A program made the position numbers and the translations under genes. From the NCBI RefSeq assembly GCF_002210285.1, contig NZ_MWQE01000012.1, forward strand, positions 1 to 64,000: a stretch of 64,000 nt of DNA, read 5' to 3'. Source of the DNA: Fibrobacter sp. UWR2. GTDB taxonomy: Bacteria; Fibrobacterota; Fibrobacteria; Fibrobacterales; Fibrobacteraceae. Position 1 is the first letter of the stretch, and each line of letters opens with the position of its first letter. This document shows positions 1-63,965 of the stretch, piece after piece. Under the pieces are notes generated by a model. It made no database searches. It saw only the letters and a program-made list of their open reading frames with translations, and was not told the origin of the DNA.

Positions 1-240
1 AAGGGCGGCCAGGAAGAAGCCTTCAAGTTCATCGATAGCCTCAAGATTTTCAGCTTGCTCGCTAACGTCGCCGACGTGAAGAGCCTCGTGATTCACCCGT
101 ACACCACCACGCATTCGGAACTCACTCCGGAAGAATTGGCTGCAGCCGGAATTACGCCGGCAACGATCCGCGTGTCTATCGGTACGGAACATTACGAAGA
201 CATCATCGCCGACCTCGAAAACGGATTCGCGGCAATTTAG
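1..240 (+). CDS. metY: O-acetylhomoserine aminocarboxypropyltransferase (MetY), C-terminal end only
   Basis: The reading frame is open from the first base of the window and stops at 238-240, so only the last 79 residues are seen. They match the end of the complete MetY encoded at 9731-11017, including the VKSL, HPYTTTHSEL and SIGTEHYEDI stretches of the Cys/Met metabolism PLP-dependent family. The enzyme would make homocysteine from O-acetylhomoserine and sulfide. The first 86 bases are identical to 10778-10863; after that the copies diverge, ending in ENGFAAI here and DQALNNI there. This is therefore a second metY-type paralogue in the same neighbourhood. Its N-terminal half, including the PLP lysine, lies outside the window. 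Confidence 0.9.
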   Translation, partial: KGGQEEAFKFIDSLKIFSLLANVADVKSLVIHPYTTTHSELTPEELAAAGITPATIRVSIGTEHYEDIIADLENGFAAI

Positions 241-262
241 TTTGGTTACGTGAAGTATCCTG

Positions 263-318
263 ATCCGGCAGCGTTTTCACCATTAGGAAACGACTGTCGG
301 GCTGGATTCTTTTTTTTT
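263..318 (+). terminator. Probable rho-independent terminator after metY paralogue
   Basis: CGGCAG-CGTTT (266-276) pairs with AAACG (288-292) and CTGTCG (294-299) with one bulged A, and a run of nine T begins at 310. About ten bases separate the stem from the T run, so it is not ideal. It separates the metY fragment from the alcohol dehydrogenase gene. Confidence 0.5.
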
Positions 319-332
319 GTACGGAGAATACA

Positions 333-1493
333 ATGATAGATTTTGAATACTACAACCCGGCGAAAATTGTATTTGGCGAACATAGTGAACAGAAGCTGAA
401 ATCGCTTTTGGCTTCGTTCGGGGTGAAGTCGCTCCAGCTTGTTTACAGCGGAGACTTTATCAAGACGCTCGGCATTTACGACGCTATCAAGGATGCTGTC
501 AATGAACTCGGGATTCGCTTTTCCGAAAACGGAAACGTGGTGCCGAACCCATCCATCGACCTGGTTCGCGAACTCGTGAAGCAGGGCAAGGAAAACGGGG
601 TAGACTTCGTCTTGGCCGTCGGCGGCGGAAGTTCCATCGATACCGCGAAGGCGGTGGCACTCGGAATACCTTACCAGGGAGATGTGTGGGATTTCTTTGA
701 AAAGGGAATCTCACCGGAACAGGTATTGCCGATTGGTGTCATCGCCACGACGGCATCGAGCGGTTCCGAAACATCCAATGCGGCAATCCTTTCGAGTGGT
801 GAATGGAAGCTCGGTTTTGAAGATGACCGAATCATTCCGAAGTTCGCCATCATGAACCCCAAATACACGGTGGGCCTGCCGGCATACCAGACTTTCGTGG
901 GCATCGCTGACGTGCTTTCGCACTTGTTGGAACGCTATTTCTCGGACGAGAAATATTCCGACACCACGGACTACCTGATAGAAGGCGCGATTCGTGCGTT
1001 GCTCGTGAATGCAGACAAGCTCATCGCCAACCAGAAAGACGTGAACGCCCGCGGAGAAATCCAGTGGCTTGCAAGCGTCGCTCATGGCGGGTTCCTGGAT
1101 GCAGGGCGTCGTGCGGACTGGGGCTCGCATCGAATCGAACATGAACTTTCTGCCCAGTACAACATCACTCACGGCGAAGGCATGGCGGTGGTGACTGTTG
1201 CTTGGACAAAGTACATGGCGGTGAAAAAGCCCTGGAGGCTTGCGCTCCTTGCGAGCCGTGTGTTCGGTGTAGATTCCTTCAACTACAGTGAAACCGAACG
1301 TGCGCTGATCCTTTCGGAAAAGCTTGCGGCATTCTTCAAAAAACTGGGGCTCGCGACGACGCTTGCAGACTTGAAGATTGGCGATAAGGACTTCGACGCG
1401 ATGGCTGCCCGTGCTACGCGCAATGGCAAGGTCGGGCACTACGTGCCGCTGGATGCTGCCGCCATCAAGGAAATTTTGAAAATCGCACTGTAA
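333..1493 (+). CDS. Iron-containing alcohol dehydrogenase (butanol dehydrogenase/YqhD-like)
   Basis: This 386-residue protein is a full-length group III (Fe-dependent) alcohol dehydrogenase, which reduces aldehydes with NAD(P)H in the cytoplasm. The nucleotide-binding GGGSSIDTAKA stretch is near residue 97 and is followed by the conserved TTASSGSETS segment. The metal-binding half shows ADVLSHLLE and, further on, EHELSAQYNITHGEG, supplying the expected Asp and His ligands. The N-terminus (FEYYNPAKIVFGE) resembles the BDH/YqhD branch, so an aldehyde reductase acting on short aldehydes is likely. The start is supported by GGAG 9 bases upstream. It is followed 58 bp later by an AhpD-like gene in the same direction, probably as an operon. 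The physiological substrate cannot be read from the sequence. Confidence 0.9.
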   Translation: MIDFEYYNPAKIVFGEHSEQKLKSLLASFGVKSLQLVYSGDFIKTLGIYDAIKDAVNELGIRFSENGNVVPNPSIDLVRELVKQGKENGVDFVLAVGGGSSIDTAKAVALGIPYQGDVWDFFEKGISPEQVLPIGVIATTASSGSETSNAAILSSGEWKLGFEDDRIIPKFAIMNPKYTVGLPAYQTFVGIADVLSHLLERYFSDEKYSDTTDYLIEGAIRALLVNADKLIANQKDVNARGEIQWLASVAHGGFLDAGRRADWGSHRIEHELSAQYNITHGEGMAVVTVAWTKYMAVKKPWRLALLASRVFGVDSFNYSETERALILSEKLAAFFKKLGLATTLADLKIGDKDFDAMAARATRNGKVGHYVPLDAAAIKEILKIAL

Positions 1494-43305: not shown

Positions 43306-43336
43306 GGTGACACTTTTACCACCGCAAGGTGTTACA
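43306..43336 (+). promoter_or_regulatory. ECF-type promoter motif 3 (upstream of TonB-dependent receptor)
   Basis: GGTGACACTTTT, 10 bp, GGTGTTACA in the same 22-bp register. It lies just after a terminator, as expected for a new transcription unit. Confidence 0.7.
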
Positions 43337-43385
43337 TGGGCAAATAGGGATTCCTATTTGCTATTTTTTTCGGAATACGAGAAGT

Positions 43386-45917
43386 TTGTTGAAGATATAT
43401 ACTGGCATTGTTTTTTTATTGGCGGCGGGGGCTGCCTTGGCGCAGGGGCCGGCGGCCGGTTCCGAGGGCGTTGCTGCGGATTCTGCGCAGGTCCAGGGAA
43501 TCACCTTCAATGGTGTGGTGCAAGATGCCTCCTTTGCTGCAGGCGAAAAGCTGAACGTTGAAATCCTTGAATCAGGCGAGGCGCTACAGACAACTGTCGG
43601 GGCGCCTTTCAGCGTCGTTCTCCCGGAAGACACGCTCTGGAATGTTTGCGTGACCAATTCCGACACGGCGGGTGCCGAGAAAGAAAGGTGTTATGAACTT
43701 GTCTACACCGGCACCGAGCGCTCCTTCTCGCAGGTGCTGGGCGATGCTTTTGCAGAGCCGGACAGTTCTAATAAGGGAGAAGGGGAAAGTATTCCCCTCG
43801 CTTCTGCCGCTGACTCGGCATCCGCTACCCCTTCGAGCGGGGATACCCCGCAACGCCCCGATTCTTCGGGCACCAATACCGCTCCTGAAAAAGACGTCGA
43901 TGTCGATGCGCTCCTCGCCGGCGGCAACAACGAGAAGGTGACCGAACTCAAGAAGGTCGTGGTGCAGTTGCGCAAGCGCCCCAAGCGCAAGCCGGGCGAA
44001 TCGGTAGTCTCCGCCAAATCCATCAAGCGCATGCCGGGCCTTGCCGAAGCCGACGTCATCAAGAGCATACAGGCGCTGCCGGGCGTGGTGGCGAGTTCCG
44101 ATTTCAGTTCCAAGATCTACGTGCGCGGCGGCGCCGCTGACCAGAACCTGTTCCTGTTCGATAACGCGGTCGTCTACTCCCCGGTGCATTTCTTCGGACT
44201 GTTCAGTACCTTCCTCGTGGAAGGTATCGACGATGTGCAGTTCTACAAGAGCGGTTTCCCGGCGCAGTACGGCAACCGTTTGAGTTCCGTGCTCAAGATG
44301 GATGGTCGCGCGGGTGGCCAGGATACCGTTGAGGAATGGTTCAGCAAGTCGAGCGTCAAGATAAGTACGTTTGCCGCGCAGCTCCATACCGAAGGCCACA
44401 AGGGAGGTGCCCGCTGGGTTTTTGCCGGCCGTACTACCTACATCGGTTACATGCTCGATTTGTTCAATGCCATAGGGCTCCTGGATCTCGCGCTCGACTA
44501 CGAGTTTACCGACCTGCAGGGCACCTTCATGTACAACTTTACCGAGGATACGCGCTTCAAGTTCAGTTTCTACGTGGGCAAGGACCGCCTGAGTTTTGAC
44601 CCGCTCTACATGGACTGGGGTAACGTCGCGATTCCCGTGAACATTACGCACCGCATCAACGGCGACTGGGATTACAATGCGACGCTTGCATACAGCAAGT
44701 TCTACCAGACTATGGAAGTTGGCGACTTGATGTCCATCGAGATGTTCCTCTACACCTTTGCGGGCAAGCAGTGGGTGAACTACCGCGGTATCGACAATCA
44801 TACCTTCACTGCGGGCTACGAACTGGAATACGACTACGAACGCTACCAGGAACAGATGTCATCCATGAAGATTGCCGATATCCAGAAGGCATTCCACCAC
44901 GTGGCCTACGTGCAGGATGCCTGGAAGGCGACTCCCGATCTGTTGCTGCAATACGGCATGCGCTTCAATTACCAGACGGCGGCAGAACACTTTGGCGTGG
45001 AACCGCGCGCATCGTTGACACTGAATATTGACGATACAAAGTCCGTGGAAATTTATGGTGGCTACTACCTGCAGTACCTGAACTCGATTGTCTATACTGA
45101 TCAGGAAACGCTCAACGAATTCTACTATCCGGCGACCACGACCACCAAGGGCAGGCATATCAAGCCGGCTTCTTCGTGGCTCCTTGCCGCGGAATATAGC
45201 CACCGTGAACTGTTCGAAGGTTACGATGCGACCGTGGGTGTCTATTACAAGACGCAGAATAACCTGAACACGTTCCAGGCGGTTCTCGACAGTAACGAAG
45301 AAACGGCTTCCAAGGACTTTGTCGTGGCCGATGGTTTCGGCACGGCCGAGGGCTATTCCTTCGGTTACGAGCTTTCGCTGCGCAAGAATAAGGGTTGGTG
45401 GTTCGGAGGAATCAACTGGAGCCAGGGCATAAGTGTACTCAAGACGAATGACGGTACCAAGCCGTATTTCCCGAGCTGGCACCAGCCATATGCATTGAAA
45501 CTGGACCTGGGAATCAACTGGAAGGGCGACGAGGATGCCCTCTGGAAGCATGAGGTCAAGGGCCGCTACGTGCGTTCTTCGCTTGCGCTCAAGTATTCCG
45601 CCGGTATGCCTATCAGTGAATACAAGGGGTACTACTACCCGCAGGAACTGGGTGACCAGGAATACACGGACAAGATAACGGTTGTGCCGGGCAGCCGCAA
45701 TGCGGGCCGCCAGACGGACTACTTCCGCATAGACGTGAAGGCTCTCGATATCGGGCGCGAAGGCAAGTGGAACTTTAGCTGGACCATCATCAACCTGACC
45801 GACCACGAAAACATGTTCTATACCTTCTACGATACGAGCAAGAACCCGCCAGAGAAGACTTCTATTTCGCAGTTCCCCTATTTGCCGATTATGCTGAACT
45901 ATGAATACTATTTCTAG
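43386..45917 (+). CDS. TonB-dependent outer-membrane receptor
   Basis: The about 843-residue protein has a signal peptide (LKIYTGIVFLLAAGAALAQ), an N-terminal beta-sandwich, a plug domain (about residues 195-310; PGLAEADVIKSIQALPGVVASSDFSSKIYVRGG) and a 22-strand-type barrel ending LNYEYYF. Such receptors import large or scarce ligands using TonB energy. The frame is open from 43329, but that GTG lies inside the promoter motif; TTG 43386 (or 43389), after GAGAAG and directly before the signal peptide, is the likely start. It overlaps the next gene by 17 bp. The DUF4249-like partner and dedicated TonB genes nearby suggest a self-contained uptake system; the ligand is unknown. Confidence 0.85.
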   Translation: MLKIYTGIVFLLAAGAALAQGPAAGSEGVAADSAQVQGITFNGVVQDASFAAGEKLNVEILESGEALQTTVGAPFSVVLPEDTLWNVCVTNSDTAGAEKERCYELVYTGTERSFSQVLGDAFAEPDSSNKGEGESIPLASAADSASATPSSGDTPQRPDSSGTNTAPEKDVDVDALLAGGNNEKVTELKKVVVQLRKRPKRKPGESVVSAKSIKRMPGLAEADVIKSIQALPGVVASSDFSSKIYVRGGAADQNLFLFDNAVVYSPVHFFGLFSTFLVEGIDDVQFYKSGFPAQYGNRLSSVLKMDGRAGGQDTVEEWFSKSSVKISTFAAQLHTEGHKGGARWVFAGRTTYIGYMLDLFNAIGLLDLALDYEFTDLQGTFMYNFTEDTRFKFSFYVGKDRLSFDPLYMDWGNVAIPVNITHRINGDWDYNATLAYSKFYQTMEVGDLMSIEMFLYTFAGKQWVNYRGIDNHTFTAGYELEYDYERYQEQMSSMKIADIQKAFHHVAYVQDAWKATPDLLLQYGMRFNYQTAAEHFGVEPRASLTLNIDDTKSVEIYGGYYLQYLNSIVYTDQETLNEFYYPATTTTKGRHIKPASSWLLAAEYSHRELFEGYDATVGVYYKTQNNLNTFQAVLDSNEETASKDFVVADGFGTAEGYSFGYELSLRKNKGWWFGGINWSQGISVLKTNDGTKPYFPSWHQPYALKLDLGINWKGDEDALWKHEVKGRYVRSSLALKYSAGMPISEYKGYYYPQELGDQEYTDKITVVPGSRNAGRQTDYFRIDVKALDIGREGKWNFSWTIINLTDHENMFYTFYDTSKNPPEKTSISQFPYLPIMLNYEYYF

Positions 45918-47535
45918 ACTCCTCTGTGCATTTGCGCTCGTGCTTGTTGCCTGTGATTTCCACGGCCCGTGGGAGTACTATCCCGACGAACGCGACGTGT
46001 ATACGGGCATCTACACCTACGGCTATATCCTCGACGGGGGCGAATCCAGGATCTGCTTCTCGAAGGTCTATGAACTCGACGAAACTTCTGCTGAAGGATT
46101 CGCGTTCTACGACAGTGCATACGTGACGGTGACGGGAAGGTTCAATAGCACTATCGACAGTACGACAATCAAGCTTGAGCCGATTGTAGACAATCCGAAC
46201 TGTTTTGCAAAAGACGACATGCATTATTACGGGCTTTCCGGCGAAACCTACACGATGGAAGCCTTCTTCAAGTGGGACAGCGCTGGTCATACGGCGAAAT
46301 CTACTTACAGGGCGCAGGCGACTGTGCCCGCTCCGGTGAAGGTAAAAGGGCTCAGCGTGCCCCAGCAGGACGGAAGCTTTGAGTGGGTCGAAAGCGACGG
46401 AAGCGATACCGTGCACATCAAGTTCCTGGAATTCCCGCTGGACATGGAGACCGTGAAATGCGCGCTGGATTATGACAAGTCCATCAAGGGCGTGATATCT
46501 ATTCTACAATACGGTATGGAAAACGAGGAATCGATGAACACGACCATCAATAAGATGATAAGTGGCCTCGTGGAGCCGGATTCAGAGGGCTATACGGGTA
46601 TGGCCATGCACGATCCGTTGGAATACGAGCAGAATCTTGGATACACGACGAAGCAGAGCATCGGCGGTATCCAGGCGCTTGATACATTGTTCTTGCCGAA
46701 TATGATGATGCCGCTCGGGCCGGTGACAGTCGTGTTCTACACGACGGACGAACACTACATCGACTACGAGCAGAAAGTAAAGGGCTCTGTTTCTGATTCG
46801 CGTGTTGTTCCGGAATCGAATATCGAAAACGGCATGGGCGTTTTTAGTGGAATGGCGAAATCGACGTTCTCCTTCTATGTCGAAGGCGAGAATGGCGTGC
46901 CGATGGATCACATTGCCGCTGCCAACTGCGACGTGACATCTGAGGGCAAGAACAAGAGCTGGGCTTCGCGCGGCTGCAGACTCTACCAGGACGTGTACTG
47001 CTCGGGCATGCCGGTAGAGGATTATGAGAAGTACAGCCTGCTTGAAGCCAATGCGATTGCCTACGAATACTATGCGAATGTTGATGAAAACATTGAACGG
47101 ATTCGATTTTCCAAGACCTGCTATGCCTCGGGCGTGAAGGCGGCGATGATGCTGGATACTACCAAGTGGTCCCTGTTCCTGCCCGATACCATCAGTGACG
47201 AGGACAAGTCTAATGCCTATGGCGACGGACTCAAGCGTTACTGCGTGGCGAGCGGTTTTGAAAGCAACCATATTGCCGACTGTTCCGAACTTAAGAAGGA
47301 ATGCCTTGAAGATGCCGAGAAGAACGGCTGCAAGGAATACCTTTGGAACTGGTGCGCTGACCGTGGCTGGAATATGAGTTCGTCGAAGTGCCGCAGCGCA
47401 CTGGTGAGCCGCTACTACCTCGAGAAGCAGACGTCAAGTATCCTGGAACGCAAGGTCAAGGAAATTTGCGACCCGAAGGACCCGTTAAGGCCCCTAATCT
47501 GCGAAACGTTGCCCCAAAAGGGAAAGAATAAATAA
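45901..47535 (+). CDS. DUF4249-like lipoprotein partner of the TonB-dependent receptor
   Basis: The 544-residue lipoprotein (lipobox LVLVAC, Cys18) begins after the lipid site with a beta-rich domain (YTGIYTYGYILDGGESRICFSKVYEL, SAYVTVTG) that resembles DUF4249, a family in Bacteroidota encoded next to TonB-dependent receptors. The C-terminal third (about residues 360-530) has eight or more Cys and no recognisable family. Its start lies inside the end of the receptor gene (17-bp overlap), so the two are translated together. It is probably the surface or periplasmic partner that helps capture ligand. Confidence 0.65.
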   Translation: MNTISRLLCAFALVLVACDFHGPWEYYPDERDVYTGIYTYGYILDGGESRICFSKVYELDETSAEGFAFYDSAYVTVTGRFNSTIDSTTIKLEPIVDNPNCFAKDDMHYYGLSGETYTMEAFFKWDSAGHTAKSTYRAQATVPAPVKVKGLSVPQQDGSFEWVESDGSDTVHIKFLEFPLDMETVKCALDYDKSIKGVISILQYGMENEESMNTTINKMISGLVEPDSEGYTGMAMHDPLEYEQNLGYTTKQSIGGIQALDTLFLPNMMMPLGPVTVVFYTTDEHYIDYEQKVKGSVSDSRVVPESNIENGMGVFSGMAKSTFSFYVEGENGVPMDHIAAANCDVTSEGKNKSWASRGCRLYQDVYCSGMPVEDYEKYSLLEANAIAYEYYANVDENIERIRFSKTCYASGVKAAMMLDTTKWSLFLPDTISDEDKSNAYGDGLKRYCVASGFESNHIADCSELKKECLEDAEKNGCKEYLWNWCADRGWNMSSSKCRSALVSRYYLEKQTSSILERKVKEICDPKDPLRPLICETLPQKGKNK

Positions 47536-60189: not shown

Positions 60190-60365
60190 CTCTTGCAGGC
60201 GGCCTAGTCGGGCGGTTTGCAAGGAGAGAACCCCGTGAAAGCCGGGGGCGGTCGCGCCGCTGTAAGGGAGGACGAAACCGGCATAAACCAATGTGCGAGA
60301 AATCGCATGTGAAGGAGCCGGGAGTAGGGTGAGCCCCGAGTCAGAAGAACTGCGGGAAACGGTTT
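60190..60365 (+). promoter_or_regulatory. Cobalamin (B12) riboswitch
   Basis: The leader contains the B12-box-like GAGTCAGAAGAACTGC (60338-60353), the conserved core GTGAAAGCCGGGGGCGG, CGCCGCTGTAA around 60233-60264, and GGAGAGAA before it, in the usual order and spacing. The B12 box ends about 16 bases before the ribosome-binding site of the receptor gene, so control is probably translational. The stretch 60106-60189 holds only the promoter regions of the two divergent genes. Confidence 0.9.
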
Positions 60366-60377
60366 GAACGAGGAACG

Positions 60378-62432
60378 ATGCGAACGACATCTTTCTGCAG
60401 AGCCGCTTTATTTGCGGCCTTTTCGTGCTGTGCTTGGGAAAGTTCCCATGCGCAAGTTCCCTCGTCATCCAAGGATATCGCTGTCGATGAGTCTGCGCCT
60501 GTGCAGGATTTGGGTGTTTCCCAAGTTGAATCGTACGCTATCGCCGAGACAGAAAATCCGGGAACGGACTACATGGAAATTACGCCTTCCGCATGGGAGG
60601 GCCTTGGCCTTTCGGCTTCCGAAGTCATCTCGTCGCTTTCGGGTATTCAGGGCTACAAGCAGGGCGGCATGGGCAGTTTCCAGACGGTGTCCGTCCGCGG
60701 TATTGCCGCACGTAACGTGCTGATTTGCATCGACGGCATTCCCCTGAACGATGCTGGTGGCGGTGCTGCCGACTTGGGGGCGATCGACCTCAACACTATC
60801 GAGAGGATTGAGGTTTACAAGGACAGGGTCCCGGCGAAGTTCGGCGGTGCGGGCCTTGGCGGTGCCATAAACTTCGTGACCAAGGATGCATTGCATAGCG
60901 GTAAGACCCCGAAGGGGCGCGTCATTGCGAGTTACGGTTCGCACAACACGTTCGAAGGTTCCGTGCAGGTTTCCGCAAGCGTAAAGGACAGCGTGCAGTT
61001 CTCGGCGACGGCATCTATGCGCCACAGCGACAACGACTACGAGTTCGATAACAGGAACGGTACGCTCTATAACGATGAGGACGATTTTAGGGACAGGCGC
61101 AGGAATGCGGAGTTCACGGAATATTCCGGCAGTTTCCAGTACCGCATGCTCCACGGGAACGGGGCTTTCTCTATCTTGTCTGCAAGCGCATTGCATACGC
61201 AGGCGGGGAATCCCGGTATGGAAGACCTGCAGACCTATGTGGCGGAATTCGTGGGCGATATGGCGCAGGTGGCGTACCGTCTGGAATTCCCGACGGTTGC
61301 CGACATCTTGCTCCTGGCGGCGGGCATTACCGGCAAGTTCGAGAAGAACATGTCCTCGTCATATTACCCGCTTGATAAAATTGGATTCCTCTCGAAGGAC
61401 TTCAGGGAGTATGGGCTTGCGGGCTACAGGGCTATTCCCGAGATGTCGGCGAACCTCCTGTTGGACAAATTCGAGGCATACCTGCGCCTTGCGGGTAGCG
61501 CGGAACTCTGGGAATCGCGCGGAATGCTCAAGAGTTTTGAACTGGAGCGCCTTACGGGTTCCATTGCGGGCAACGCGGAATACAACTTTACGGACTGGTT
61601 CTCGCTTTTTGCCGAAGGCAACATCCTGAAGACATACGATGATATCGGTGGCGGTCAGGTGCTGATGACTACGGGTGCCGCGGTGGTGAACGAGGCGACG
61701 GATCGCGACCTGAGCCTTGCGGGAATGGTGCAGGCGAAACTCGGGAAAAAGAACTCTTGGATTGGCGGCAACGTTTCGTTCGGTCGCTTTTACAGGCAGC
61801 CGCAACTGATGGAACTCTACGGCGTGTATCCGGGTTCCCTTTCGAGCCCCTCGCTCAAGGATGAATCGGCCTTGCGCTTTGCTGCGGGTCTTTCGTTTGC
61901 TACCCCGAAGAACCGCTCGGTATTGCGCGCCACCTATTTCGAGAACCATGTCGAGAACGGAATATACTGGATTATGAGTGCCAACCTGATGAAGGCTTTC
62001 AATATCGACAAGTCGATTATTCGCGGGGTGGAACTCGAACTGGAAAGCCGTCCGGTAAAATTCTTCCAGGCGGTGCTGCGCGGGACAATCCAGGACCCGC
62101 GTGATGACGGTATGAACAATGCCTACAATGGAAAATTGCTGCCGGGCGAACCTGTGCACAGCTATTTTGCCGAGGGAACATTCTTTTTGCCGTTAGACCT
62201 GAGGCTCATTTTCCAGACCACGTACAGGACGCGGATTTTCAGTGACCGCATGAATTTCACGAGGCAGCCTCCGGTTGCCCGTTACAATGCTTCGATTGCA
62301 TGGCAGCCTTGGGAAAAGACGCAGGTTATGTTCGCGGTGGACAATATTTCGGATGAGACCTACCGCAATATCTACACGCCTTACCCGGCGCCCGGTCGAG
62401 AATACAGGTTTACACTCATACAGGGGTTCTAG
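60378..62432 (+). CDS. btuB: BtuB-type TonB-dependent cobalamin receptor
   Basis: The 684-residue protein has a signal peptide (ALFAAFSCCAWESSHAQ), a plug domain (about residues 80-190; ASEVISSLSGIQGYKQGGMGSFQTVSVRGI, IDGIPLND, GGAGLGGAINFVTK) and a barrel ending YRFTLIQGF, with the terminal Phe. The B12 riboswitch in its leader identifies cobalamin or a corrinoid as the probable ligand. GAGGAA precedes ATG 60378. No TonB gene is adjacent. The next gene, 42 bp downstream with no terminator between, encodes a lipoprotein that may be its partner. Confidence 0.88.
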   Translation: MRTTSFCRAALFAAFSCCAWESSHAQVPSSSKDIAVDESAPVQDLGVSQVESYAIAETENPGTDYMEITPSAWEGLGLSASEVISSLSGIQGYKQGGMGSFQTVSVRGIAARNVLICIDGIPLNDAGGGAADLGAIDLNTIERIEVYKDRVPAKFGGAGLGGAINFVTKDALHSGKTPKGRVIASYGSHNTFEGSVQVSASVKDSVQFSATASMRHSDNDYEFDNRNGTLYNDEDDFRDRRRNAEFTEYSGSFQYRMLHGNGAFSILSASALHTQAGNPGMEDLQTYVAEFVGDMAQVAYRLEFPTVADILLLAAGITGKFEKNMSSSYYPLDKIGFLSKDFREYGLAGYRAIPEMSANLLLDKFEAYLRLAGSAELWESRGMLKSFELERLTGSIAGNAEYNFTDWFSLFAEGNILKTYDDIGGGQVLMTTGAAVVNEATDRDLSLAGMVQAKLGKKNSWIGGNVSFGRFYRQPQLMELYGVYPGSLSSPSLKDESALRFAAGLSFATPKNRSVLRATYFENHVENGIYWIMSANLMKAFNIDKSIIRGVELELESRPVKFFQAVLRGTIQDPRDDGMNNAYNGKLLPGEPVHSYFAEGTFFLPLDLRLIFQTTYRTRIFSDRMNFTRQPPVARYNASIAWQPWEKTQVMFAVDNISDETYRNIYTPYPAPGREYRFTLIQGF

Positions 62433-62474
62433 CCCCCGCGCACAACATGCGTAAAGCCAGAAAAGGAAGCAACC

Positions 62475-63965
62475 ATGAATAAAAAAATACTCACACTACT
62501 CGCTTCGATGTCGCTAGCGTTCTTCATGAGCGCTTGCGGTGACGACAACAGCTCGGGCGCCAGCATAGATTGCCTCGACAACGAGGAATGCCTGGACGAT
62601 GATCTCAGCAGCTCTGACGACGGCGAAAGCTCCAGCTCCGTGAAGGCTAAGTCCAGCAGCTCGCAGAAGGCTAAGTCGAGCAGCTCGGAAAAGGCGAAGT
62701 CCAGTTCCAGCAAAAAAGACGACAAGTCCAGTAGCTCGGAAAAGAAGGACTCCAGCAGTTCTGCCAAGTCGAGTTCTTCCGAAAAGGCCAAGTCTAGCAG
62801 TTCCGCAAAATCCAGCTCCAGCGAAGCCAAGTCCAGTTCTTCTGAAAAGGCCAAGTCCAGTTCCAGCGAGGCGGTGAGCAGTTCTTCCGAAGAACCGGAA
62901 TCCAGCAGCTCTGTTGAACCGAAGGTGACCTACCTGGCTAATACGCCGTTTGCCGCCGACCTCGAAGTCTCCGGCGATACGTTGTTCGCCGTATTCCAGC
63001 GCTACGAAGTTGCCGATGATGGATATAGCGCTATCTTCAACGATCCGGGCCTTCTCGCTATGTACAAGTTGAGCGATGGTACCCTTCTTGATACGATTCC
63101 GCTTCTGACCAAGAACCCGCAGGCTGTGAAGGTCGTGAAGGGCAATGTGTACGTGGGTACTCAGGGCGAATACAATGCCGCCTGGGGTATTGACGCCGAT
63201 GAAAACCGCGGTATCGAAAAGATTGACCTGAAGAAAAAGAAGTCTGAACTTTGGGTGAGCGGTACGCTGCTTGGCGGTGGCGTGTACATGATGGATGTCG
63301 ATCCGGTTTCTGGCAAGGCTGTTGTTGCCGTTTACAAGGCTTACCAGAATGTTCCTGCTGCCGAAGTCGATTTGAATGATAAGTCGGTAAGGAGGATTGA
63401 TGGTGTTGTCGATGCCAGCGGTGGCGTTTACTATGATCGCAAGGGTGAACTCTTCTATATCGGCGACCGTGGTTCCATAGATTTCGATACGTATGAGATG
63501 ACACCCATGGTGGCGTATTCTTATAATGGCTTGAAACTCCATGCCCTTTATGACGATGAAATGGGTTATCAGCCCGCCGGTATGGCCGTTATCAATCACG
63601 AAGTGTTCGTCTACATTAGCGACTTTGCTAACGCCGGTAAACTTTACTGGATTGATGGCGAAGATATTAGCGACGAAAACATCCAGTTCTCTACCGACAC
63701 GAAGATCGTGGAGGTCAATGGTGGCCTGTACGTGCTTGACCGTAAGGGCAAGGGCAGCATCTCGAAGGTGAATACCAGCGCAAAGACGGTTGCCTGGCAG
63801 AAGGCCATCGACTCCGAAAACCCCTACGATATCGTGGCGATTGACGGTAGCACTGCTTGGGTTGCCATGTACAACACGGCTGAAATCCGCAAGATTTCTC
63901 TCACGGACGGCGCCACCGTTTCGAGCATCGATACGAAGGAACTCAGCGCCAAGATTGTCGAATAA
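62475..63965 (+). CDS. Serine-linker beta-propeller lipoprotein, candidate B12-capture partner of BtuB
   Basis: The 496-residue lipoprotein (lipobox FMSAC, Cys21) has a Ser/Lys linker (residues 45-150, repeated KAKSSSSE blocks) and a C-terminal domain of about 340 residues made of repeated four-strand blades (LYWIDGEDIS, YVLDRKGKGSISKVNTS, DTLFAVFQRYE), a beta-propeller of YVTN/YncE type. In Bacteroides, BtuG is a surface beta-propeller lipoprotein that binds B12 and passes it to BtuB. Its place directly behind a B12-riboswitch btuB makes a similar role likely; homology to BtuG itself is not shown. AAAGGAAG precedes the ATG. Later transport genes would lie beyond the window. Confidence 0.7.
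   Translation: MNKKILTLLASMSLAFFMSACGDDNSSGASIDCLDNEECLDDDLSSSDDGESSSSVKAKSSSSQKAKSSSSEKAKSSSSKKDDKSSSSEKKDSSSSAKSSSSEKAKSSSSAKSSSSEAKSSSSEKAKSSSSEAVSSSSEEPESSSSVEPKVTYLANTPFAADLEVSGDTLFAVFQRYEVADDGYSAIFNDPGLLAMYKLSDGTLLDTIPLLTKNPQAVKVVKGNVYVGTQGEYNAAWGIDADENRGIEKIDLKKKKSELWVSGTLLGGGVYMMDVDPVSGKAVVAVYKAYQNVPAAEVDLNDKSVRRIDGVVDASGGVYYDRKGELFYIGDRGSIDFDTYEMTPMVAYSYNGLKLHALYDDEMGYQPAGMAVINHEVFVYISDFANAGKLYWIDGEDISDENIQFSTDTKIVEVNGGLYVLDRKGKGSISKVNTSAKTVAWQKAIDSENPYDIVAIDGSTAWVAMYNTAEIRKISLTDGATVSSIDTKELSAKIVE

Follow-up and report, generated by a model that had tools for sequence, protein, structure and literature searches.

A cobalamin-riboswitch locus of Fibrobacter sp. UWR2 with a probable, circularly permuted BtuG-type partner of BtuB

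At the end of a 64,000 nt stretch of the Fibrobacter sp. UWR2 genome (contig NZ_MWQE01000012.1, positions 1 to 64,000; "the window" below), a cobalamin riboswitch precedes the genes for a BtuB-type TonB-dependent receptor and for a lipoprotein whose beta-propeller follows a Ser-rich linker. Is this lipoprotein a counterpart of BtuG, the propeller lipoprotein that binds cobalamin with femtomolar affinity in Bacteroides thetaiotaomicron (PMC6143338)? A preliminary description of the locus had left the choice between a distant relative of BtuG and convergence. The results described below largely support, at the level of sequences and models, that the lipoprotein family is a distant relative of BtuG, and they uncover a feature that the preliminary description had overlooked, namely, that the chain of the window protein is permuted. 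A riboswitch-run, two-gene B12 uptake cassette with a permuted BtuG-type lid of BtuB is the reading that we favor and regard as quite probable.

When the window protein was compared with its same-genus relatives by blastp, two matches were obtained, in swapped order; the segments matching ordinary-order relatives of the genus are mostly 35–54% identical. Profile A1, which was built from ordinary-order relatives, likewise aligned to the window protein in two pieces with the order swapped (profile positions 123–298, then 3–120), and the C-terminal ~117 residues of the window protein correspond to the first third of the propeller of the relatives. The shifted half of the permuted propeller was aligned by hhalign with an E value of 1.7e-47. 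Iteration of a single profile over the repeats gave mixed matches, and a doubled profile was used in its place, in which the ordinary-order members are written twice, such that the start of a one-piece alignment gives the rotation and the ambiguity of the blade repeats is avoided. With this profile, the alignments of ordinary members begin close to position 1 or 325, and 23 members of the family of the window protein match in one piece, rotated. The window protein and eight members of its genus start at 119–121 and end at 441–443, that is, after a full turn, one of the nine rotated genus members starting at 78, via its linker. Furthermore, the ordinary form has a unique motif at its N-terminus, SDYxxG...QDxK...LYVLER, and in the rotated form this motif is located near the C-terminus; the rotated order therefore does not result from a one-blade slip. 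Judged by these alignments, the window lipoprotein is a circular permutant of the propeller of its relatives, rotated by ~120 of 324 positions and with a blade order along the chain unlike that of BtuG. Judged by the predicted strands of the ordinary model, the new ends would fall in the loop between strands 115–120 and 134–140, which would be the boundary of two blades, with the old ends now fused.

The relationship to BtuG emerges from the relatives with the ordinary order. The AlphaFold2 model of one of these (L042, from genome G012; mean predicted local distance difference test score (pLDDT) 96.3, predicted template modeling score (pTM) 0.93) was compared by Foldseek with 350,542 PDB chains. 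The top matches were BtuG2, BtuG1, BtuG1 with BtuB1, XusB and BtuG3, with E values from 1e-13 to 1e-10 and template modeling (TM) scores of 0.68–0.75, and the BtuG matches (entries 8ptf, 8ptd, 8blw_B, 8okv, 8bmz, 8bai and 3dsm) were full length and collinear. VIA-align gave a Z score of 29.2 over 292 residues for L042 and BtuG2, end to end and collinear over 1..334. Profile comparisons point in the same direction: BtuG chains were retrieved by a profile search of the PDB sequences (E 4e-4 to 1e-2), and hhalign aligned the ordinary relatives collinearly with 13 BtuG3-like sequences (probability 96.9, E 1.8e-10). A 62-row ordinary-order profile matched BtuG with a probability of 92.7, and the same profile, when rotated, with one of 13.3. 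BtuG3-like proteins match the Pfam family DUF5074. Among 34 relatives, 7 match this family as well, one of which (G057) scores above the curated cut-off (37.8 vs 27.2).

In contrast, comparing the window protein directly with BtuG2 and the other BtuGs fails: Pfam, a PDB sequence search, hhalign and Foldseek returned nothing or generic propellers, probably because of the permutation. When the permuted subgroup alone, which is of low diversity, was rotated back, no BtuG match was recovered (probability 16.5). Because the model of the window protein itself matches generic propellers, the link of the rotated clade to BtuG runs through the ordinary-order relatives in the same locus. The window protein shares with BtuG the adjacency to btuB under a cobalamin riboswitch, the lipoprotein signal and, as seen through these relatives, the BtuG-type propeller; the blade order of BtuG is found in the unpermuted relatives and not in the window protein, hence the name "BtuG-type, permuted". 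Compared with BtuG1-3 of B. thetaiotaomicron (DUF5074), the resemblance extends to a net acidic, seven-bladed propeller next to btuB and to the collinear structural and profile matches of the unpermuted relatives. The differences are the phylum (Bacteroidetes for BtuG), the low identity, the permutation, a Ser-rich tether of ~130 aa instead of the short linker of BtuG, and a cluster without btuCDF.

The three elements form a short operon on the + strand at the window end (Table 1), with the order of riboswitch, receptor and lipoprotein that had been proposed before. The riboswitch covers the whole RF00174 model with 79.1 bits, compared with an Rfam gathering cut-off of 31.5; there is no other Rfam match in the window, and no second cobalamin riboswitch in the 3.28-Mb genome. 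The ATG of btuB is located 6 nt past the end of the aptamer, and this proximity suggests that the control of btuB is translational. Between the two genes, a scan for consensus terminator patterns detected none, as had been noted previously, and the same kind of scan placed a terminator pattern just 3' of the lipoprotein gene (contig positions 64076–64095, beyond the window).

Table 1. Features of the riboswitch-receptor-lipoprotein locus (positions in the window)
Feature	Position	Strand	Basis
Cobalamin riboswitch aptamer, RF00174	60180..60371	+	cmscan 79.1 bits, E 7.9e-18, model 1-189
BtuB-type TonB-dependent receptor, 684 aa	60378..62432	+	Open reading frame (ORF), Plug and barrel Pfam domains
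Gap between btuB and lipoprotein gene, 42 nt, ribosome-binding-like AGGAAG	62433..62474	+	Sequence, pattern scan
BtuG-type lipoprotein gene, 496 aa	62475..63965	+	ORF; family in 156/168 genomes of the phylum
Lipoprotein signal peptide, lipobox MSAC, Cys21 codon 62535-62537	62475..62537	+	Sequence; relatives show the same lipobox pattern
Ser-rich tether, ~130 aa, 43% Ser	62538..62924	+	Sequence
Beta-propeller, seven-bladed by homology, circularly permuted	62925..63965	+	AlphaFold2 model; doubled-profile alignment, positions 121-441, one piece
First part of permuted propeller (ordinary profile positions 123-298)	62937..63476	+	E 1.3e-55
Last part of permuted propeller (ordinary profile positions 3-120, N-terminal third)	63600..63950	+	E 1.4e-29

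The lipoprotein architecture of the preliminary description was also recovered: the lipobox cysteine is followed by a Ser-rich linker up to about residue 150 and then by a domain that AlphaFold2 models as a propeller (mean pLDDT 88.1, pTM 0.88). The residues directly after the cysteine are GDDNSS; a Bacteroidetes-type surface export signal has been described (PMC6143338). The window propeller is acidic (51 D+E vs 32 K+R), and the ligand face of BtuG2 has been described likewise, which is weak evidence.

The receptor contains a Plug domain (E 4e-16) and a barrel (E 6e-16), it is controlled by the riboswitch, and its closest solved structures are Bacteroides BtuBs (8p97/8p98). With Bacteroides BtuB1-3 it has in common these domains, this control and a propeller lipoprotein partner; the similarity is, however, remote and below the BtuB equivalog cut-offs. 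We therefore call the receptor "BtuB-type" and presume it to be specific for B12.

Is this arrangement peculiar to one genome? The loci behind 61 cobalamin riboswitches were collected from the genome and its relatives, and in nearly all complete btuB loci a homologous lipoprotein gene directly follows btuB. With profile A1, the family was detected in 156 of 168 genomes of the phylum, among them 88 of the 89 good ones, and in 40 of 41 genera. In 88 of the 93 lipoprotein loci read, the propeller domain lies on the strand of the BtuB domain, 0–900 nt downstream of it; the remaining five differ by an additional copy, a different gene order or a somewhat wider spacing. The richer neighborhoods of the family in the phylum are B12-specific: the order is cobU, cobT, cobS, btuB, lipoprotein in G052, and btuB, lipoprotein, periplasmic binding protein, ATP-binding cassette (ABC) ATPase, FecCD permease in G056.

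Several observations weigh against a BtuG-type, B12-capturing lid in the window. The models alone put BtuG first, by a margin that is not wide: in the VIA-align comparison, an archaeal YVTN propeller (1l0q; Z score 28.4) ties with BtuG2 (29.2), lactonases come next at 26.4, and XusB is directly behind BtuG in the Foldseek ranking. The identity to BtuG is just 10–16%, the propeller superfamilies are large, and a Pfam scan of the window protein gave no DUF5074 match. The receptor scores 99 bits with TIGR01779 (TonB-B12) and 81.8 bits with NF007926, far below the equivalog cut-offs of 599.7 and 836, respectively. A riboswitch acting on the translation of btuB would reach the lipoprotein only via coupling or polarity. 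Finally, a BtuF for the FecCD permease of the genome was not identified, the gene for a 253-aa protein before the permease matching neither Pfam nor PDB entries.

A first rival reading is that the pair mediates the B12-repressed uptake of another ligand, such as a siderophore as in XusAB, with the propeller catching that ligand. XusB (9hqe, 9hqk), the DUF4374 siderophore lid of Bacteroides (PMC13142918), is also a seven-bladed propeller lipoprotein capping a TonB-dependent receptor; it is fourth in the Foldseek list and, as a structural match, second to BtuG. Moreover, the best NCBIfam model for the receptor is TonB-siderophor, although the score is below its cut-off, and the genome contains a second receptor paired with a propeller-like lipoprotein and an AraC-type regulator. 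However, the only cobalamin riboswitch of the genome governs the btuB-lipoprotein pair, the pair adjoins cobUTS or btuFDC-like genes elsewhere in the phylum, the nearest solved receptors are BtuBs, and the families listed for 34 relatives do not include DUF4374. The XusB locus, for its part, is a siderophore locus with PepSY genes, and XusB has a hook loop. We consider a different ligand unlikely.

That second pair is located on contig C2 (213660–217387; L220:3661–7388), where the gene for a 434-aa lipoprotein with a Ser linker directly precedes that for a 758-aa TonB-dependent receptor; the pair is preceded by genes coding for an AraC-type regulator and for a protein of the ABC type. The lipoprotein weakly matches the BtuG-type profile, and the two are perhaps a XusAB-like siderophore pair. 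XusB homologues are reported to have the same hook loop either in blade 2 or in blade 4 (PMC13142918); a possible reading of this shift, which is ours and is not made in that study, is that the chain has been rotated in these lids too.

Alternatively, the propeller might be an unrelated YncE- or WD40-like protein that converged on the gene position of BtuG. The model of the window protein ranks such generic propellers first, and the identity to BtuG is low. Against this, BtuG is structurally first for the unpermuted relatives, the blade order of these is collinear with that of BtuG with the match being lost after rotation, and the G057 protein exceeds the DUF5074 cut-off. Thus, of the two possibilities left by the preliminary description, the distant relative is retained and convergence appears decidedly improbable. 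A periplasm-facing protein with a structural or assembly role, similar to BamB, is hardly credible: PQQ_2/BamB-type Pfam matches occur in 13 of 34 members, mostly weak ones, and they are opposed by the strict linkage to btuB and the riboswitch, the joint inheritance with btuB and the structural ranking of BtuG above BamB.

Given a permuted BtuG-type lid, how often did the permutation arise? In a tree of BtuB sequences only, the receptors with a rotated partner form one clade within the ordinary ones (99 in the Shimodaira-Hasegawa-like approximate likelihood ratio test (SH-aLRT)), and a tree of the lipoproteins, folded back to one frame, agrees (rotated clade with a support of 100). As read from these trees, the permutation within the family of the window protein arose once, together with its btuB. 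This clade includes loci from two other genera, g19 and g24, in which other species have the ordinary form, an indication that btuB and the lipoprotein gene were transferred horizontally as one unit. The distance from the lipobox cysteine to the propeller is 72–165 aa (median 123) in the 23 rotated members and 10–113 aa (median 21) in 46 ordinary members of the family; because the rotated members are one clade, the long tether and the rotation count as a single correlated change rather than as 23 separate ones. No insertions or deletions in BtuB that track the permutation were found; just 14 scattered clade-specific residues differ.

Rotated proteins also occur outside of this clade. Compared with the protein of its genus-mate G057, that of G071 (family f10) shows two matching segments whose order is swapped, one of 204 aa with 62% identity and one of 131 aa with 54%; this distant rotated protein has a short linker of ~21 aa. 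Rotation at about the same place, at lower similarity, was observed in G073 (f10), G054 (f8), G040 (f4) and G053/G055 (f7), and three f3 genomes have a third chain order that starts about one blade before the ordinary start. Forcing together the two clearest cases, the rotated clade of the window protein and G071, was rejected by the approximately unbiased (AU) test (p = 9.8e-6), and so was a single origin across the phylum, with all rotated rows as one clade (p = 4e-62); the groups were chosen after the first tree had been seen, and these p values are thus somewhat optimistic. In bootstrap trees, the rotated label changes six to seven times, a count that still included the fragment G061. An automatic rule had called this sequence, at the start of a contig, permuted, and it was dropped from the final test; G042, the frame of which is uncertain, was left out of the trees. 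Given the poor resolution of the deep nodes, the long branches of several rows and the fragmented state of many assemblies, we claim firmly, from the sequences, at least two independent rotations; more than two are likely. The ordinary order is that of BtuG and is therefore probably ancestral.

Two ordinary-order lipoprotein genes in tandem behind one btuB were observed in G148 (L187; contig C30, 1400–9400), which also carries a permuted locus on contig C42; the contamination of this assembly is 8%. This tandem is only suggestive of the kind of intermediate expected for permutation by duplication.

The function that we propose is based on the homology to BtuG and the locus context, and it includes B12 capture, a lid complex, surface exposure and an altered hinge geometry, each of them inferred. 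With plentiful cobalamin, the riboswitch would repress btuB, probably at translation. One transcript would yield the receptor and the lipoprotein, the propeller of which would cap BtuB as a lid, catch cobalamin and pass it to the barrel. The permuted chain would start in the loop between two ancestral blades and pass through the fused ancestral C- and N-termini, and the lipid tether would leave the ring about a third of the way round and span the distance to the membrane via the long Ser-rich linker. In B. thetaiotaomicron, BtuG caps BtuB as a lid; its short N-terminal linker runs along the BtuB loops EL2 and EL11 and has been proposed as the hinge of BtuB2G2 (PMC10404256). Provided that neither the face of the propeller nor its contact with BtuB has changed, the rotation would shift the tether by ~130 degrees (120 of 324 positions), and a hinge of the BtuB2G2 type would therefore have to differ here. 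Tentatively, and with somewhat more doubt than conviction, we suggest that recurrent permutation at one inter-blade loop moves the anchor and hinge of the lid to a different blade, that neither the ligand face nor the contact with BtuB changes position, that the Ser tether compensates, and that the change is adaptive, having been fixed repeatedly and independently and passing between genera along with btuB.

The remaining gene content is consistent with B12 scavenging. The genome encodes MetH, the B12-dependent methionine synthase, and lacks CobS, and only one FecCD permease, accompanied by an ABC ATPase, is present, which fits a reliance on imported B12. The genes after position 63965, which the preliminary description had proposed to inspect for btuCDF, resemble prmA and rarA, judged on their translations, and not btuCDF; the permease and its ATPase are encoded on another contig.

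BtuG homologues have been reported in Bacteroidetes only (PMC6143338). Among the open-license papers searched, none mentions BtuG together with Fibrobacter, and those that combine circular permutation, a beta-propeller and a lipoprotein do not, judged by title and abstract, describe a system of this kind; an earlier description is possible. What is new is therefore a BtuG-type partner of BtuB in a second phylum, repeatedly permuted. With a homologous partner in nearly every genome of that phylum, B12 uptake assisted by a lipoprotein may be more ancient or more widely distributed than previously assumed. The repeated permutation amounts to a natural experiment on the opening of a lid transporter, in which the linker was relocated by roughly one third of a turn and grew to ~130 residues, and the hinge model is directly testable because close relatives with and without the permutation exist within one genus.

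Two further observations concern transport genes of the same genome. On contig C5 (L174:3222–5712), the 253-aa protein mentioned above, which looks secreted, is encoded before the FecCD permease and the ABC ATPase, and it is a candidate for a divergent BtuF of the sole such transporter of the genome. Altogether, the genome encodes three receptors with a Plug domain. The gene for the third of these (862 aa) overlaps the start of that for a 544-aa putative lipoprotein without a Pfam match, another receptor-lipoprotein pair (window positions 43329–47535).

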